Source of the DNA: an uncultured Thioclava sp.
GTDB taxonomy: Bacteria > Pseudomonadota > Alphaproteobacteria > Rhodobacterales > Rhodobacteraceae
Length of the DNA stretch: 37,713 bases
Reading direction: 5' to 3'
Assembly: GCF_913064665.1 (NCBI RefSeq)
Contig: NZ_CAJYBT010000036.1
Location: 1-37,713, forward strand
The notes under the pieces were generated by a model that ran no database searches, was not told where the DNA came from, and saw nothing but the letters and a program-made list of their open reading frames with translations. Every line of letters begins with the position of its first letter. Within the stretch, counting starts at the first letter, position 1. Positions 19,857 to 26,300 of this stretch are shown here, piece after piece. Made by a program: the position numbers and the translations under genes.

Positions 19857-20213
19857 TTAGCTGCCGCGATAGGTCGAATAGCCATAGGGCGACAACAGCA
19901 GGGGCACATGGTAATGCGCCTGCGGATCGGCCATGCCAAAGCGGATCGGCACCTGATCGAGAAACAGCGGCTCTGCGCTTGCCTGCCCGCTTGCGCGCAG
20001 ATAGTCCCCGGCGTGAAAGACCAACTCATAGCTGCCAGTTTCAAAGTCTTCAGCGGGAAAGATCGGACTGTCGGTGCGGCCATCGGCATTGGAGGTCATC
20101 TCGGTGATCTGCGCGCGCGCATCGCCAGAAAGGCGAAACAGAACAATGCGCAACCCCGCGGCCGGACAGCCACGCGCCGTATCAAGAACATGTGTCGTCA
20201 GATATCCCGCCAT
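19857..20213 (-). CDS. uraH: 5-Hydroxyisourate hydrolase (transthyretin-like)
   Basis: A 118-residue enzyme that hydrolyses the PuuD product 5-hydroxyisourate to OHCU. Characteristic are the N-terminal [29 protein letters not shown]-like [33 protein letters not shown] and the terminal YRGS signature that separates these enzymes from vertebrate transthyretin. The active-site histidines are in TTHV and HYHVP. The ATG at 20213, with AGG 7 bases upstream, gives the normal length. It sits upstream of puuD on the same strand. The OHCU decarboxylase gene that usually completes the trio is not in this window. Confidence 0.95.
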
Positions 20214-20349
20214 GATCACCTGCAATCCTTTTTCAAAGCCACATTCACTATGTCCCGCACGCCCCGCCAATGACAAGTTACAGAATGCTCACCGGAAGTT
20301 GCGCCCTTGCGAACACGCTTTTGCTTGATCGCAGGGGCGTGAACCCCAC

Positions 20350-20389
20350 CTGTCATAACAGTTGAATAAATCTGTCATCCCGCCGTTAC
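20350..20389 (+). promoter_or_regulatory. Pho-box-like array upstream of plcP
   Basis: In the 371-base gap between uraH and plcP, CTGTCAT occurs at 20350-20356 and again at 20372-20378, exactly 22 bases (two 11-bp PhoB periods) apart. The middle unit GTTGAATAAAT keeps the ATAAAT part, so 20361-20378 matches the 18-base PhoB box CTGTCATAAATCTGTCAT at 14 positions. A fourth weaker unit, CCGTTAC, follows in phase. The gap shows nothing else recognisable. It fits control of the plcP operon by PhoB. Confidence 0.7.
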
Positions 20390-20584
20390 GCTTTGCCGTC
20401 ATCCGGGGTGTGTCAATGTAATTGCGAGTGCCATGCCCAGTTCGACCGCCATTTTTGCGCCCCCATGCCTGCCCCACCCCGGCAGGGTGAACACGGGTCT
20501 CAGATCACGGATATGCGCCTACGTCATCTCGGCGGGCGAACGGGTCAGTTTTTCAAGCCCCTGTTGCCAACTCGGAGCCGCAAG

Positions 20585-21406
20585 ATGACCGTCCCCAGCG
20601 TCCCAGCCAAACCCAGTCGCCACCGCACACAGTATCGCACGCTGTTCTTGTCGGATTTCCACCTTGGCTCACGGGGCTGTCGACCCGGTCCGATCCTTGA
20701 CTTCCTGCGCGCAACCGACGCCGAGACGATCTATCTGGTGGGGGACATTCTTGATCTGTGGCACGGCGGTAAAGTGCAATGGACGGGGGCGCAGACCGAA
20801 ATCATGCACGAGCTGGAACTGCGCGCGGCACGCGGCACGCGGGTGGTGTATCTGCCGGGCAATCACGACGCCTCGATGCGCGGCCCCGGCATGAGTTTTC
20901 TCAATTTCGAACTGGCCGAACGGATCGTGCATCACGGCGCAGACGGGCAGCGCTATTTGGTCATTCATGGCGATCAATGCGATGTGCGGTTTCTGCGCTG
21001 GCATGCGATGACGCGCTTTGGCAGTCGCATGGATGCGCTGTTTCGCGGGCTTGATGCGTGGTTGCGCCGCCGGATGGGACGTTCGGAGACAGAGCATAGC
21101 GTAATCGAACTGGCGATTGCGGGCGTCAACCGCCTGTTGAGGCGCGGCGAGCGCTACGAGCGCCGCCTCACCACGCTTGCCCAGCGCGCCGATACCCATG
21201 GCATCATTTGCGGCCATTCGCACAAACCCGCGCTGCGCGATCTGGGCGGGCTGACCTATGCCAATTGCGGCGATTGGGTCGACAGCCTGACCGCCTTGTG
21301 CGAAGATCACTCTGGCGCGCTGCAACTGCTGGAATGGCGCGCCGAACGCCATGCCCAGCCCATTCTGAACGCCGAGAAACCGGCCTTGGCGAAGGTACGT
21401 GTATGA
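20585..21406 (+). CDS. plcP: PlcP-type phospholipase C (LpxH-like metallophosphoesterase)
   Basis: A 273-residue calcineurin-like phosphoesterase with all five metal motifs: LFLSDFHLGSRGC, LVGDILDLW, LPGNHD, LVIHGDQCD and ICGHSHKP, ending in ANCGDWVDSLTALCEDHSG. This pattern fits the PlcP group first described in Sinorhizobium meliloti and found in marine Rhodobacterales. There it strips phosphate head groups from phospholipids under phosphate limitation, leaving diacylglycerol. General annotation would be UDP-2,3-diacylglucosamine diphosphatase (LpxH), but the adjacent Agt-like glycosyltransferase and the Pho box make PlcP the better reading. GGAG is 7 bases before the ATG. Its stop overlaps the next start (ATGA). 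Confidence 0.83.
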   Translation: MTVPSVPAKPSRHRTQYRTLFLSDFHLGSRGCRPGPILDFLRATDAETIYLVGDILDLWHGGKVQWTGAQTEIMHELELRAARGTRVVYLPGNHDASMRGPGMSFLNFELAERIVHHGADGQRYLVIHGDQCDVRFLRWHAMTRFGSRMDALFRGLDAWLRRRMGRSETEHSVIELAIAGVNRLLRRGERYERRLTTLAQRADTHGIICGHSHKPALRDLGGLTYANCGDWVDSLTALCEDHSGALQLLEWRAERHAQPILNAEKPALAKVRV

Positions 21407-22527
21407 GTATTCTTGGCCTCATCCTAATCGGTTTTGTGGCGCTTACCGTCGCGATCCATCTCATCACCTCTGCGATGGCAGCTTTGCGCAGCCTGCGCCC
21501 TGCCCGCCCGACCCCGACCCAACTGCCCAAGATCGCGCTGCTGCGCCCGGTTTGCGGTGTCGATCCCTTTGATCGCGAAACGCTGGGCTCGTCCTTCAAT
21601 CTCGATTACCCCGATTACGAGGTGATCTTCTGTGCCCCCTCCAAAGCCGATCCGGCCTGCGATCTGGTGGCCGAGTTGATGGCGCAAAACCCCCATGTCA
21701 AAGCGCAGCTTCTGACGGGTCTTGATGCGGTATCGGGCAATCCCAAGCTGAACAACTTGCACAAAGGCTTGGCCGCGACCGATGCGCAATGGCTGGCGAT
21801 GACCGATAGCAACCTATTGCTTCCGCAAGATTATCTGCAACGCCTATTGGCAGAGTGGCGTCCGGGCACCGGGCTGGTATCCGCGCCCCCCGTGGGCACT
21901 CGCGCCAGCAATCTTTGGGGCGCCATCGAGGCTGCATTTCTCAACACCAATCAAGCGCGCTGGCAATTGGCTGCCGATATGCTGGGCTTTGGCTTTGCGC
22001 AGGGCAAGACCTTGTTCTGGAACCGCGACATCTTGATGAAAGGTGGCGGGTTTGGCGCTTTGGGGCGCAACATGGCCGAGGATGTCGCCGCAACCAAACT
22101 GGTGCGCGATCAAGGGCTGCAGGTGCGCCTGGCCCGCCATCTCTTTGCGCAACCGATCGGGACGCGCGCGCCCCGCGCGGTGTGGGAGCGTCAACTACGT
22201 TGGTCGAAAGTGCGCCGCGACGGGTTCGTCTTCATCTTCGCAGCCGAAATCGCGCAAGGTCCTGTTCTGCCCTTTGCCGCCGTCATCGCGCTGGTTGCAA
22301 CCGGGATATGGCCCGCGCTGGCATTGCCCGGCCTGTTTTTCCTGTGGTATGGCGTGGAATGGGCGCTGTCGCGGGCTGCCGGCTGGTCGGCAAGCTGGCG
22401 CGATCTGGCGGCGTGGATGATCCGCGACGCGATGTTGCCCGCGCTCTGGCTCGCCACCTGGAAAGACCGCCGCTTCACGTGGCGGGGCAATGAGATGTCA
22501 CATCACGAAACCTCCACGGGCGCATAA
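21403..22527 (+). CDS. agt: Agt/GT21-type glycosyltransferase (ceramide glucosyltransferase-like)
   Basis: A 374-residue membrane glycosyltransferase. There is one N-terminal transmembrane helix (LGLILIGFVALTVAIHLI) and C-terminal hydrophobic segments (PVLPFAAVIALVATGIWPAL, LPGLFFLWYGVEWAL). The catalytic part shows the aspartates expected of the family in YPDYEVIFCAPSKADPACD, LAMTDSNLLLPQDYL, and NMAEDVAATKLV, plus the acceptor motif QLRW (a Q/RxxRW form). In Rhodobacterales and Rhizobiales the Agt protein paired with PlcP sugar-modifies the released diacylglycerol to form glycolipids that replace phospholipids. Its ATG overlaps the plcP stop, so the two are coupled. Sugar donor (UDP-glucose or UDP-glucuronate) is not decided by sequence. 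Confidence 0.8.
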   Translation: MSILGLILIGFVALTVAIHLITSAMAALRSLRPARPTPTQLPKIALLRPVCGVDPFDRETLGSSFNLDYPDYEVIFCAPSKADPACDLVAELMAQNPHVKAQLLTGLDAVSGNPKLNNLHKGLAATDAQWLAMTDSNLLLPQDYLQRLLAEWRPGTGLVSAPPVGTRASNLWGAIEAAFLNTNQARWQLAADMLGFGFAQGKTLFWNRDILMKGGGFGALGRNMAEDVAATKLVRDQGLQVRLARHLFAQPIGTRAPRAVWERQLRWSKVRRDGFVFIFAAEIAQGPVLPFAAVIALVATGIWPALALPGLFFLWYGVEWALSRAAGWSASWRDLAAWMIRDAMLPALWLATWKDRRFTWRGNEMSHHETSTGA

Positions 22528-22530
22528 ATC

Positions 22531-23106
22531 ATGATCGGACTGGAGACGCTGACCGTTTTGATGGCCAAGCACGGGCTGGCGGTGATCGCCCCGGTCGCGG
22601 TGCTCGAAGGGCCGATCGTGACGGTGATCGCAGCTTGGCTGGCCAGTCAGCATTTGTTCTCGGTCTGGAGTGTGTCGGCCGTCGTCATTCTGGCCGATCT
22701 GGTGGGCGATATGGGGCTGTATGCGCTGGGGCGATGGGGCCTGCACCGCCTGCCCGCCCGCTGGCGCGACAAACTGGGGCTCAATTCCGAGCGGCTGGAA
22801 CGCAACGGGCAGCACTTTCGCGACAAGGGCGTGCGCACCTTGCTGTTTGGCAAATGGACCCACTCTGCGGGCGGGCCGGTGCTGGTGGCCGCAGGCGTCG
22901 GGCGGATGAATATCTGGGTTTTCGCGGCCACGAACCTGATCGCGACAATCCCGAAATCGCTGTTATTCGTGGCTTTGGGATACCAACTTGGTGCCTATTA
23001 CGGCAGCATCGACAGCTGGATCACGCGCGCATCCCTGGTCGCGCTCGGGGCGATCCTGCTTGGTGTAACTATCTGGTATTTCAGGAGAAAGAAGCCCCAC
23101 GCATGA
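22531..23106 (+). CDS. DedA/VTT-family membrane protein
   Basis: A 191-residue integral membrane protein. VLEGPIVTVIAAWLASQ carries the conserved glutamate of the reentrant loop, GDMGLYALGRWGLHRLP and FRDKGVRTLLFGKWTHSAGGPVLVAAGVGRM replace the usual GRFIPGVRT segment, and TNLIATIPKSLLFVALGYQLG follows. Family members act as lipid carrier flippases or scramblases (undecaprenyl phosphate, phospholipids). Three bases after agt and overlapped at its own stop by the next glycosyltransferase (ATGA), so it belongs to the same transcript. A role in moving diacylglycerol, glycolipid or a polyprenyl carrier during remodelling is inference. The KWTH variant of the arginine motif is unusual. Confidence 0.8.
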   Translation: MIGLETLTVLMAKHGLAVIAPVAVLEGPIVTVIAAWLASQHLFSVWSVSAVVILADLVGDMGLYALGRWGLHRLPARWRDKLGLNSERLERNGQHFRDKGVRTLLFGKWTHSAGGPVLVAAGVGRMNIWVFAATNLIATIPKSLLFVALGYQLGAYYGSIDSWITRASLVALGAILLGVTIWYFRRKKPHA

Positions 23107-23846
23107 TCCAGATCAGCTGTATCATCCCCGCCTATAACGAGGCCCCCCGGATCGGTGCCGTTCTAAAGACCGTGCTGGGGCATCCCCAGATCGCGCAGGT
23201 GATCGTGGTGGATGATGGGTCAAGCGATGACACCGCGCGCATCGCACAAGACCACCAAGGCGCGCATCCTCATTTGCAGGTGATCCGCCAGCCGCAAAAC
23301 GGCGGTAAGACGGCAGCCGTGGCCGCCGGGATCGCAGCCAGTTCGGGCAGCCATCTGCTATTGCTTGACAGCGACCTGTTGGGGCTATCGCCTGCCGATC
23401 TGGGGGCGCTGATCGCCCCTGTGGCGCGTGGGGAGGCGGACGTCTCGATCAGCCTGCGCCGCAATGCACCGCGCATCTGGCGGCTGATCGGGCTCGATTA
23501 CATCTCGGGCGAGCGGGTGCTGGAGCGCGCCGCTTTGGCCAGTCAACTTGATCAATTGAATGCGCTGCCGCGGTTCGGGCTGGAAGTGTTCATGAACCGG
23601 CTTTGGATCGCGCGATCTACGCGCATCGCCGTGGTCCCCTGGCCCGGCGTCGACAGTCCGATGAAACACGCGAAACTGGGCAATTGGCGCCAAGGTCTTA
23701 CGGCGGATGCCAAGATGATGCGCGACATTTTCCGCACCATCCCACCCCAACATGCCCTGCGCCAGATCCTTGCCATGCGGCGGTTGCGCGTCGCCGATCC
23801 GCCCCAACCCGAACCACAGCCGCAGACGGAACGAAACCCGCGCTAG
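23103..23846 (+). CDS. GT2-family glycosyltransferase
   Basis: A 247-residue soluble GT-A enzyme. The start reads MIQISCIIPAYNEAPRIGAVL, then VIVVDDGSSDDTA and NGGKTAAVAAGIA, with the DxD-type metal site in LLLLDSDLLGL. No membrane helix is visible, in contrast to typical polyprenyl-phosphate transferases. Its C-terminal tail is proline-rich. The ATG overlaps the DedA stop (ATGA). Being the fourth gene of the plcP operon, it could add a second sugar or use a lipid carrier, but acceptor and donor are unknown. Confidence 0.83.
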   Translation: MIQISCIIPAYNEAPRIGAVLKTVLGHPQIAQVIVVDDGSSDDTARIAQDHQGAHPHLQVIRQPQNGGKTAAVAAGIAASSGSHLLLLDSDLLGLSPADLGALIAPVARGEADVSISLRRNAPRIWRLIGLDYISGERVLERAALASQLDQLNALPRFGLEVFMNRLWIARSTRIAVVPWPGVDSPMKHAKLGNWRQGLTADAKMMRDIFRTIPPQHALRQILAMRRLRVADPPQPEPQPQTERNPR

Positions 23847-23883
23847 GGGGTTAGGTCTGGCAATCACCCAATCCGGAGGCATC

Positions 23884-25302
23884 ATGGCCCAGCACAACCG
23901 CGTCATCATTATCGGCTCAGGTTCGGCGGGGCTGTCGGCTCTGCGCGAGGTGCGCCGCGAGACCGACGATTTCCTGATCGTCAACGCGGGCGACTGGGGC
24001 ACGACCTGTGCGGCGCGCGGCTGCATGCCCTCCAAGGCGCTGATCGAGGCCGCCAACGCCTTTCATCGGCGCAACGATTTCTCCGAATTCGGCATCAGCG
24101 GAGCAGAAGCGTTGCGCGCCGACATTCCTACAATTCTAGCCCGGGTGCGCAGACTGCGCGATGACTTTGTCGCCTCGCCACGGTCCGTACCCAAAGATTT
24201 GGGAGAACGGGCAATCTCGGCCCGGGCGGAAATCATGGCCCCAAACCGCGTCATGATCGAGGGCTTGGGCGAGCGCACCGCAGACGCGATCATCCTTGCC
24301 ACTGGCTCCTCGCCCGTTTTGCCCAAACCTTGGGAGACATTTGGCAACCGCATTCTGACCACCGACACGTTGTTCGAACTGCCCGATCTGCCCCGGCGCA
24401 TCGCGGTAATCGGCATGGGCGCGATCGGGGTCGAACTGGCGCAGGCCATGGCGCGGTTGGGCGTCGAAGTGGCAGGCTTTGATGCGCTTGAAACGCTCGC
24501 TGGCGTCAGCGACCCCGAGGTCGCCGCTGCCCTGCATGCTCAGGTTTCACGCGATCTGCACCTGTATCTGGGCGCGCCCGCCGACATCGAAGACCAGGGC
24601 AGCACGCTGCGCGTCACTGGCGCAGGCGGCACGTTTGAGGCCGATGCAATCCTCGCTGCGATGGGACGCAAACCCAATATCGCCGGGCTCGGCCTTGAGA
24701 GCTTGGGCGTCGCGCTGAACGATCGCGGGATGCCGCAGGTCGATGCGAACACGCTGCAAATCGGCGATCTGCCGGTGTTTCTGGCGGGCGATGCCAATGG
24801 CGCGCGCGCGTTGCTGCACGAGGCCGCTGATGAGGGCTTTATCGCGGGGCGCAATGCCTTGGCCGCGACTCCGCATGCCTATTGCCGTCGCGTGCCGCTT
24901 GCGGTGACGTTTTCCAGCCCCAATGCCGCGCGCATCGGGAAGGGCTTTGGCGATTTGACGCCCGGCGCGTATCTTATTGGCGCGCAGGATTTCCGCCGGC
25001 ACCCCCGCGCCCGGATGGCCGAAAAGGCGCATGGGATGATCCGCATCTATGCCGCCAAGGACAGCGGCAAGCTGTTGGGGGCAGAACTGGCCCTGCCCGA
25101 GGGCGAACATATCGCCCATTTGCTGGCGCTGGCGCTGCATAAGGAGATGGATGTGCACGACCTGTTGGGCATGCCGTTCTATCATCCGGTGTTCGAAGAG
25201 GGGCTGCGCAGTGCGTTGCGCCAAATCATGCGCGATCTGCCCGATCAAGGGCGCTCTGATCTGGCCGATTGCCCGGCTTGCGGGCATGCAGCGCTAGATT
25301 AA
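23884..25302 (+). CDS. FAD-dependent pyridine nucleotide-disulfide oxidoreductase (dihydrolipoamide dehydrogenase-like)
   Basis: A 472-residue flavoprotein. FAD motif IIGSGSAGLSA (residues 11-16), redox disulfide Cys42-x4-Cys47 in GTTCAARGCMPSKAL, NAD(P) motif VIGMGAIGVELAQAM, the second FAD motif VFLAGDANG, and the dimer-interface pair in FYHPVFEEGL (catalytic His and Glu of the class). The C-terminus has an extra CPAC pair (Cys463, Cys466) six residues from the end, reminiscent of the mercuric reductase C-terminal cysteines. GGAGG is 6 bases before the ATG. It starts 37 bases after the GT2 gene on the same strand and may be in the Pho-controlled run. Substrate is unknown; no partner lipoyl protein gene is nearby. 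Confidence 0.85.
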   Translation: MAQHNRVIIIGSGSAGLSALREVRRETDDFLIVNAGDWGTTCAARGCMPSKALIEAANAFHRRNDFSEFGISGAEALRADIPTILARVRRLRDDFVASPRSVPKDLGERAISARAEIMAPNRVMIEGLGERTADAIILATGSSPVLPKPWETFGNRILTTDTLFELPDLPRRIAVIGMGAIGVELAQAMARLGVEVAGFDALETLAGVSDPEVAAALHAQVSRDLHLYLGAPADIEDQGSTLRVTGAGGTFEADAILAAMGRKPNIAGLGLESLGVALNDRGMPQVDANTLQIGDLPVFLAGDANGARALLHEAADEGFIAGRNALAATPHAYCRRVPLAVTFSSPNAARIGKGFGDLTPGAYLIGAQDFRRHPRARMAEKAHGMIRIYAAKDSGKLLGAELALPEGEHIAHLLALALHKEMDVHDLLGMPFYHPVFEEGLRSALRQIMRDLPDQGRSDLADCPACGHAALD

Positions 25303-25649
25303 AGCGCCGCGATCTGGGCCACGCGGGCGTTATTGTCGGGGGCAAGGCTGCCATCCGCCATCAGCAGCAAATTTTCGACCCCCACCCGCGCCTTGCCATC
25401 CGCTTGCAATGACACTTGCAAACAGGCCGTTTCGCCCGCCCCAAAAGCACAGAGCGCCCAGTCGGACCGAAACCGCGCGCCCGCCATCCATTCTCGAAAA
25501 GGCAGCAGCATCTCAGGCTGCGAGACCTGCCCCTCGACATCTCGGCCCAGCACGAAGATCAACTGCAGATCAGGGTTATGCAGCAGCCGCTCTGGCAGGA
25601 GCTGCGCCAAGGCCGCACCATCCTCGCGGCTGTAAAAAATATCTTGCAC
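25299..25649 (-). pseudogene. Truncated BKACE (DUF849, 3-keto-5-aminohexanoate cleavage) gene, C-terminal part only
   Basis: An open frame of 116 codons reads LQLIFVLGRDVEGQVSQPEM, WALCAFGAGETACLQVSLQA, GKARVGVENLLLMADGSLAP and DNNARVAQIAAL. This is the end of a beta-keto acid cleavage enzyme, a family normally near 280-300 residues. The N-terminal part, with the conserved metal histidines and barrel, is missing. The nominal GTG at 25649 has no ribosome site and sits inside the remnant of an aminotransferase gene in another frame. Its stop overlaps the stop of the flavoprotein gene. A fusion or reuse as a small protein is not excluded, but decay is more likely. Confidence 0.6.
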
Positions 25650-26300
25650 CGCATCATCGCCCGGATCGCCACGCCCAGCTTGTCGATCAACTCGCCAATC
25701 TGGTCCACACTGAGGGTAAAGTGCGAGGCGAACAGGACGTGATCGCCTTGCTGGCCATCAATCGTGCCCCCATCGGATAGCAGATTAGCCCCGCCTCGAA
25801 CGCCGCCGCCCTGATCTGCTTATGCACGCCGCGCGCCGGGTCAAAGGGCGCTTTGGTGGTGCGATCAGCAACGATCTCAAGCCCGCGAATATCGCCGATA
25901 TGAGGGTGGTGCAAAGCGTGTCCCCAATCGGCTGATAGCCCGCCCCCAGCCCATGACGATGGTCACAGTATCGGGCGCGATCCCGTCTTGCTCATAGGCA
26001 AACAGCGTGCCGGTGCGCCCTCTTCCAGCCATTCCTCGGGCAGCAGTTCGGGCCGCTCCATGAACAGCGGAAAACAGCGCGTTGATCATCGCAGTAACGC
26101 GGAAAGACATGGAGCATGGCAGCCCCTCCGGGACATGCTGGCGGAATACGCACTCAGCCTGATCCACAAACGGGCGTGCTTGCGAATATGCGATGCGGGG
26201 CGCGCGCGATCACCCCTGCGAGAGTTCCCCCCTGCCCGCACGCATCAACTTTTCCGGCGCAGAGCTGCGCGGCGCTGGTGCAACGCCCACCACAGCCTAC
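25650..26300 (-). pseudogene. Decayed class III aminotransferase gene
   Basis: Minus-strand fragments in different frames match one aminotransferase in order: RIAYSQARPFVDQAE and EGL (N-terminal part, near 26120-26200), GRTGTLFAYEQDGIAPDTV (near 25955-26015), a frame change at a G run then GAGYQPIG, a large internal loss, GDIRGLEIVADRTTKAPFDP and FEAGLICYPMG (about 25775-25905), a second frame change at another G run, then GDHVLFA and QIGELIDKLGVAI near 25690-25750. The internal loss and a foreign 83-base insert show real decay, even if the two G-run shifts were sequencing errors. It lies upstream of a BKACE remnant on the same strand, as such pairs often do in intact form. Confidence 0.75.
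26019..26101 (-). repeat. Inverted copy of an 82-base dgt segment inside the pseudogene
   Basis: Read on the minus strand, these 83 bases match dgt positions 29126-29207 (plus strand) with three substitutions and one added T. The match covers the codons for RVTAMINALF through PEEWLEE. The junction with aminotransferase sequence shares a GG. The intact dgt lies about 3 kb away in opposite orientation. Confidence 0.85.

Follow-up and report, generated by a model that had tools for sequence, protein, structure and literature searches.

The window analysed here is a stretch of 37,713 nucleotides from an uncultured Thioclava sp. (contig NZ_CAJYBT010000036.1), whose closest relatives among named genomes are Thioclava. 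Four genes in it, plcP-GT21-DedA-GT2, occupy positions 20585-23846 of the forward strand, with a Pho-box-like array located 5' of plcP. With gene starts picked by script, the array and the four genes are laid out as follows:

20350-20393, forward strand: Pho-box-like array of four 11-base-pair (bp) units, two of them exact CTGTCAT (unit search, shuffles)
20585-21406, forward strand: plcP, calcineurin-type phosphoesterase, PlcP-like phospholipase C, 273 amino acids (Pfam Metallophos_2/Metallophos)
21403-22527, forward strand: GT21 glycosyltransferase (gene 2) of the Pgt/ceramide-glucosyltransferase family, membrane-bound, 374 amino acids (PF13506, E 5e-49)
22531-23106, forward strand: DedA/VTT protein of a distinct lineage with EGP and KxTH motifs, 191 amino acids (PF09335, VTT_dom, E 2e-14)
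23103-23846, forward strand: soluble GT2 glycosyltransferase with a GpgS/GtrB-like GT-A fold, without membrane helices, 247 amino acids (PF00535, Glycos_transf_2)

The genes are closely joined: plcP and GT21 share an ATGA overlap, a 3-base gap separates GT21 from DedA, and DedA and GT2 share a second ATGA overlap. The array reads CTGTCATAACA GTTGAATAAAT CTGTCATCCCG CCGTTACGCTT with an 11-bp period, and CTGTCAT is exact at 20350 and 20372. The exact pair at 22-bp spacing occurs a single time in the whole window; when up to two mismatches are allowed, there are two matches against a shuffle mean of 0.16 (two of 100 shuffles reached 2). The earlier note, made from the letters of this DNA, had described the array and the gene joints at these coordinates, which hold, with the nuance that two of the four units are degenerate.

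Conservation was followed in samples of the family (120 genera), order (390 genomes), class (289) and phylum (398), with at most 8 candidates scored per genome in the order and phylum samples and at most 22 in the GT2 family scan, so that misses are possible. A first set holds 47 loci (15 from the genus, located through the GT21 protein, and 11 from the family and 21 from the order, located through the DedA protein), with neighbours read by tblastn. A second set holds the best 80 of 198 relatives from named genomes, where EGP and KxTH were used as scan patterns; the two sets overlap, and their counts are therefore not additive. The order GT21-DedA-GT2 is found in 47/47 and 80/80 loci, the latter spread over alpha-, beta- and gammaproteobacteria and including Rhodoferax, three Acinetobacter, two Brenneria, a Serratia, a Pantoea and Pleomorphomonas. 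The gene plcP stands upstream of GT21 in 44/47 and 70/80, and the overlap between DedA and GT2 is exactly 4 bases in 66 of the 80. In the genus, all four genes follow one another in 15/15 other genomes. In the family, DedA is detected at E<1e-20 in 11 other genera, each carrying all four genes (11/11). In the order sample, DedA occurs at E<=1e-15 in 32 genomes, and the 21 remaining loci have GT21-DedA-GT2 in 21/21 and plcP in 18/21. The phylum sample yields DedA at E<=1e-22 in six genomes, five of the same family (including the window's own) and one, G1040, of another alphaproteobacterial family with all four genes present. DedA and GT2 belong to the plcP operon by conservation and do not adjoin plcP by chance; in most relatives both stay linked to it. 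The module is present a second time, in damaged form, in L066 (G008:C3), which agrees in length and hit position with the Thioclava nitratireducens plasmid NZ_CP019439.1; stops interrupt the GT21 frame of this copy and its dedA matches come in pieces, while the intact copy is chromosomal (L057).

The genes also occur together across the family. Among the 120 genera, GT21 (E<=1e-40) is present in 13. The same 13 also have GT2 (E<=1e-25), and 12 of them, but no other genus, have DedA (E<1e-20). The gene plcP (E<=1e-25) has a wider range of 19 genomes, namely the same 13 with GT21 and six more. Beside it lie GT21-GT2 in 13, a DUF3419 gene in five and neither in one; DUF3419 is presumably the BtaA family of betaine-lipid enzymes. 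By tblastn, DedA of the operon kind is not found in the six plcP loci without GT21. With DUF3419 in five of these six and DedA in none, DedA tracks the glycolipid branch and not PlcP. Therefore plcP is accompanied either by betaine-lipid genes or by GT21-(DedA)-GT2, a division that fits types 1 and 3/5 as described in PMC4796936. Pairwise distances among the four proteins correlate with r of 0.76-0.90 over 67 loci, a level reached in 0/500 permutations; the comparison, which leaves out 13 of the 80 loci (10 without plcP, plus L186, L212 and L221) and holds no housekeeping control, demonstrates co-inheritance only. Two loci, L162:2785-4680 and L240:2761-4659, have a VTT-PAP2-LssY_C fusion upstream of GT21-DedA-GT2, with plcP not found there; the fusion may provide diacylglycerol in another way. 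Judged by eye, an ettA-like gene precedes GT21 in two Acinetobacter loci.

The plcP product matches Metallophos_2 at E 2e-11 and scores 41 and 54 bits with the LpxH models, far under their cut-offs of 190 and 134, by which LpxH is rejected. It is a calcineurin-type metallophosphoesterase linked in an operon to genes for phosphorus-free lipids, as expected of PlcP, and its action as a phospholipid hydrolase is predicted here from published work on PlcP. The control array was examined upstream of plcP in the window and 70 named loci, 71 regions in all, by comparing the best three-unit match to the PhoB consensus with shuffles. A period of 11 gives a mean z of 2.02 and p<=0.05 in 31/71 regions, while the control periods of 9, 10, 12 and 13 give mean z of 0.44, 0.25, 0.52 and 0.56 and p<=0.05 in 6, 8, 11 and 7 of the 71. 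By this consensus, half sites of PhoB type with 11-bp spacing are present upstream of plcP, in the manner of the Pho regulon. The pstS gene of the same genome has a candidate site with the same spacing, which ties with another site. A scan for promoters finds no sigma-70-like site against 1.2 in shuffles and is uninformative.

Gene 2 matches PF13506 (Glyco_transf_21, GT21) and PF13641 only, and its product has hydrophobic segments close to both ends. The GT21 motif (Q/R)xxRW is present in 77/77 homologues longer than 340 amino acids in the 80-locus set, three shorter ones being omitted. Both features of a Pgt-type GT21, the Glyco_transf_21 domain and (Q/R)xxRW, are thus found. The Agt enzymes of Agrobacterium, Pelagibacter, Methylosinus and Pseudomonas are described as GT4 and the processive Pgt as GT21 (PMC8231724, PMC9239053). 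The earlier note had read the first two genes as a PlcP and Agt pair; the PlcP half stands, and Agt is ruled out since gene 2 is GT21 and Agt is GT4, of the GT-B fold. Pgt is reported to add glucose and galactose successively to diacylglycerol, with a Pho box predicted for pgt (PMC3972451), and a GT21 step on diacylglycerol would follow from this for gene 2, placed in the Pgt family by its domain. The family of the first glycosyltransferase is hereby corrected; public records name the gene ceramide glucosyltransferase. In the L273 and L274 records this name stands beside a plcP annotated as UDP-2,3-diacylglucosamine diphosphatase, and both are likely misnomers. A GT21 homologue is also carried in 12 Sinorhizobium plasmid records, at 42.5-45.1% identity in ten and 34.6% in two.

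The third gene encodes a member of the VTT/DedA superfamily (PF09335, 54.5 bits against a cut-off of 33.9). It shares with the COG0586, COG0398 and COG1238 groups the VTT domain with two re-entrant helix tips, as these are described in PMC10127716. It differs in an EGP first tip, a KxTHxxG second tip, the replacement of both phosphate arginines and a separate clade. In YghB, R130 and R136 are assigned to binding of the lipid phosphate, and E39 and D51 to protons (PMC10127716). An alignment of 40 operon DedA proteins, gathered by whole-sequence searches from the window and the 47 loci (48 in all, eight close duplicates dropped), has K in the R130 column in 40/40 and G in the R136 column in 39/40 (S in 1/40); the D51 column is P and the E39 column a gap in 40/40. 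The two conserved arginines that mark the second re-entrant tip of COG0586 are therefore not found in the operon proteins. An invariant E26, two columns before the D51 column, may substitute for one of the two acidic residues that COG0586 flippases have at the first re-entrant tip. Residues invariant in both DedA alignments include E26-G27-P28, D56, G59, D60, Y64, K108, T110, H111 and K142; counts of EGP and KxTH in the 80-locus set (80/80) are partly by construction, because the motifs served as scan patterns. In the AlphaFold2 model (predicted local distance difference test, pLDDT, 88.6; predicted template modelling score, pTM, 0.74) the helices are interrupted at E26 and at 110-113, where the tips are expected. 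Neither a solved relative by sequence (E<=1) nor a fold match (E<=0.001) is found. In a small tree with seven E. coli proteins of COG0586/COG0398/COG1238, five paralogues from the window's genome and a single VTT-PAP2 domain, the operon DedA and a Mesorhizobium AR02 protein are set apart with an ultrafast bootstrap (UFBoot) of 95, deeper nodes being weakly supported. By motif and tree position, the EGP/KxTH DedA is a distinct lineage.

On the Mesorhizobium sp. AR02 plasmid (L272:4971-7495), the gene of a KxTH-type DedA precedes those of a GT4 and of a GT2 unlike that of the operon; the 10.5 kilobases (kb) examined contain no match to plcP or GT21. The DedA lineage also pairs with other glycosyltransferases.

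The fourth gene encodes a GT2 protein in which no hydrophobic segment is found. Its AlphaFold2 model has a pLDDT of 94.5, and the best ten Foldseek rows comprise nine of glucosyl-3-phosphoglycerate synthase (GpgS, TMq 0.63-0.67) and one of GtrB, with ArnC and DPMS next. The protein shares with GpgS and with GtrB/ArnC/DPMS the GT-A fold and the DDGS-type and DxD motifs, but identity in the Foldseek rows is 20-25%. Aligned with E. coli ArnC and GtrB, it retains the N-terminal catalytic motifs and is missing the membrane part. Membership of the GtrB/ArnC group is ruled out by the missing C-terminal membrane helices.

Together, the four genes are read, with a probability of about 0.6, as a Pho-type operon through which, at low phosphate, a glycolipid without phosphorus is made and placed. 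PlcP would cut membrane phospholipids on the cytoplasmic side and release diacylglycerol, to which the membrane-bound GT21 would add the first sugar or sugars. The soluble GT2 would modify this same lipid, most probably by attaching another sugar, and DedA would carry the finished neutral glycolipid over the inner membrane, making it available to the periplasmic leaflet and to the outer membrane. The fixed gene order, the co-occurrence and the motif changes suggest the steps assigned to GT2 and DedA; the substrates, the direction of transport and the phosphate response are likewise predictions of this reading. DedA proteins without basic residues at the phosphate site may carry uncharged or positively charged lipids, according to PMC10127716. 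A bolder and clearly more tentative proposal, which we consider possible though on balance doubtful, takes the EGP/KxTH protein as a fourth DedA lineage and a dedicated flippase of phosphate-free glycolipids. It would be the inner-membrane translocase that the account of bacterial lipid remodelling still lacks, and would have arisen from an undecaprenyl-phosphate or phospholipid flippase by replacement of the phosphate-binding arginines.

Several observations weigh against the glycolipid operon as proposed. K108 retains one positive charge at the phosphate site, and because this lysine remains the case for a glycolipid substrate of DedA is moderate. A Pgt-type GT21 can attach two or even three sugars by itself, which leaves no obvious need for an enzyme that adds the second. 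DedA is missing from the plcP-GT21-GT2 loci of G061 (L132), one of the 13 family genera, and of a Pannonibacter plasmid (L273), and is therefore not indispensable; plcP is not found upstream of GT21 in 3/47 and 10/80 loci, one of the latter (L229) beginning inside GT21. The class sample contains GT21 homologues (E<=1e-40) in the window's own genome and three others, and these three loci (44-49% identity, one ending just downstream) are without plcP, DedA and GT2, as are four of four plasmid GT21 loci from two Sinorhizobium, Methylobacterium and Shinella (40-45%). Such standalone homologues, all of them outside the family, mean that the module is not universal for GT21 of this type. The hypergeometric probabilities of chance overlap in the family, about 1e-17 for GT21 and GT2 and about 1e-15 for DedA, ignore shared ancestry, and the array is individually non-significant in 40/71 loci, with related loci non-independent.

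DedA might instead supply PlcP, scrambling phospholipids out of the periplasmic leaflet and into the cytoplasmic one, where PlcP could cut them. Its place in the plcP operon (44/47 and 70/80) agrees with this, as does the description of eukaryotic VTT proteins as phospholipid scramblases (PMC10127716). This role is nevertheless improbable: DedA is kept with GT21-GT2 where plcP is absent, as in Acinetobacter and Serratia, is not found in the six plcP loci that are without GT21, and has a GT4 and another GT2 as neighbours in Mesorhizobium AR02, where neither plcP nor GT21 is matched in the 10.5 kb. The structural closeness of GT2 to GtrB, ArnC and DPMS, and the identification of COG0586 DedA proteins as undecaprenyl phosphate flippases (PMC10127716), point to a polyprenyl-phosphate sugar pathway of the GtrB-GtrA or ArnC type, in which GT2 would charge undecaprenyl phosphate with a sugar and DedA would flip this carrier or return it for reuse. 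We judge such a pathway slightly more improbable still, given a GT2 without the ArnC/GtrB membrane helices whose best fold matches are GpgS, the replacement of both phosphate-binding arginines in DedA, and no GT-C transferase noticed beside the module, where neighbours were not systematically annotated. GT2 stays with GT21 after the loss of DedA (L132, L273), and a step on the GT21 product is therefore favoured over a carrier pathway of GT2 and DedA. The product could also be a glycosphingolipid or a glycosylated hopanoid and not a glycosyl-diacylglycerol. The GT21 family includes ceramide glucosyltransferases, the name gene 2 bears in public records, and HpnI is its closest NCBIfam model. Caulobacter forms a glycosphingolipid under phosphate starvation, but through GT4 enzymes (PMC6445935). 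HpnI scores 167 bits against a cut-off of 310, and the upstream partner is plcP, or the VTT-PAP2 fusion in two loci, both plausible sources of diacylglycerol, so such a product appears quite unlikely.

The rows that flank the module, and the remnant of a further gene, are:

19857-20276, reverse strand: uraH, adjoining the module
23884-25302, forward strand: flavoprotein, a dihydrolipoyl-dehydrogenase-like flavin adenine dinucleotide (FAD) disulfide oxidoreductase (Pyr_redox_2 and Pyr_redox_dim, NF004939)
25239-26020, reverse strand: remnant of a beta-keto acid cleavage enzyme gene, with a 116-amino-acid open frame and scattered DNA similarity; Thioclava atlantica (L184) has a 469-amino-acid frame at this place

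The earlier note had taken DedA, GT2 and the flavoprotein as further parts of one response, in a five-gene order to be sought in relatives. In gene order DedA and GT2 bear this out, with plcP upstream in most loci; the flavoprotein does not. It scores as a dihydrolipoyl dehydrogenase (NF004939, 540 bits against a cut-off of 435), lies 37 bases after GT2 on the same strand with no terminator-like site between, and is kept beside the module in 11/15 congeners. Fusions of a VTT domain with a reductase of this kind exist in other proteins: PMC10127716 notes them for COG0398 DedA, and in the window's genome L001 (G000:C76:1-2786) joins a VTT domain in one frame to a sequence like pyridine-nucleotide disulfide reductases, which the pairing of flavoprotein and DedA in Thioclava resembles. 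Against a functional part in the response, it is adjacent in only 8/80 loci, seven Thioclava records and one metagenome-assembled genome of the same group, and in 0/32 loci of other genera (11 from the family, 21 from the order). Matches at E<=1e-60 are present in 5/13 genomes and linked in three, the relatives in G013 and G103 (44-45%) lying on another contig. The flavoprotein is a Thioclava-specific neighbour outside the conserved module; with linkage confined to the Thioclava group the five-gene operon is ruled out as a conserved unit, and a role for the flavoprotein in the response is very improbable.

The glycolipid operon has relatives among known lipid-remodelling systems. The plcP-agt pair of Pelagibacter, Methylosinus and Pseudomonas likewise combines plcP with a glycosyltransferase, placed either close by or immediately after it, but its Agt is GT4, whereas the Thioclava module has GT21 followed by DedA and GT2. 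Pho-box sites are reported for plcP clusters in PMC4796936. Its types 3 and 5, with the Pgt of Mesorhizobium loti and Agrobacterium, share a GT21-family transferase and plcP immediately upstream of putative glycosyltransferases; the text passages of that paper compared here mention no DedA or GT2 partner. The plcP-btaAB clusters (type 1, PMC4796936) share the upstream enzyme and presumably the same diacylglycerol supply, and carry betaine-lipid enzymes where the Thioclava module has GT21-DedA-GT2. In the text of the open-licence papers searched, PlcP and DedA are not mentioned together, and the same literature yields no experiment on the operon DedA or GT2.

The exchange of phospholipids for glycolipids requires that new lipids be moved out of the cytoplasmic leaflet. 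No protein is named for this movement in the passages covered: PMC8528852 contains no word beginning with flip- or translocat-, and PMC9239053 no flippase. A DedA protein held in a fixed operon and altered at its presumed phosphate site is a concrete candidate for this translocase. A soluble GT2 would join the glycolipid pathway, and the range of lipids carried by DedA/VTT proteins would, if the reading is true, be widened.

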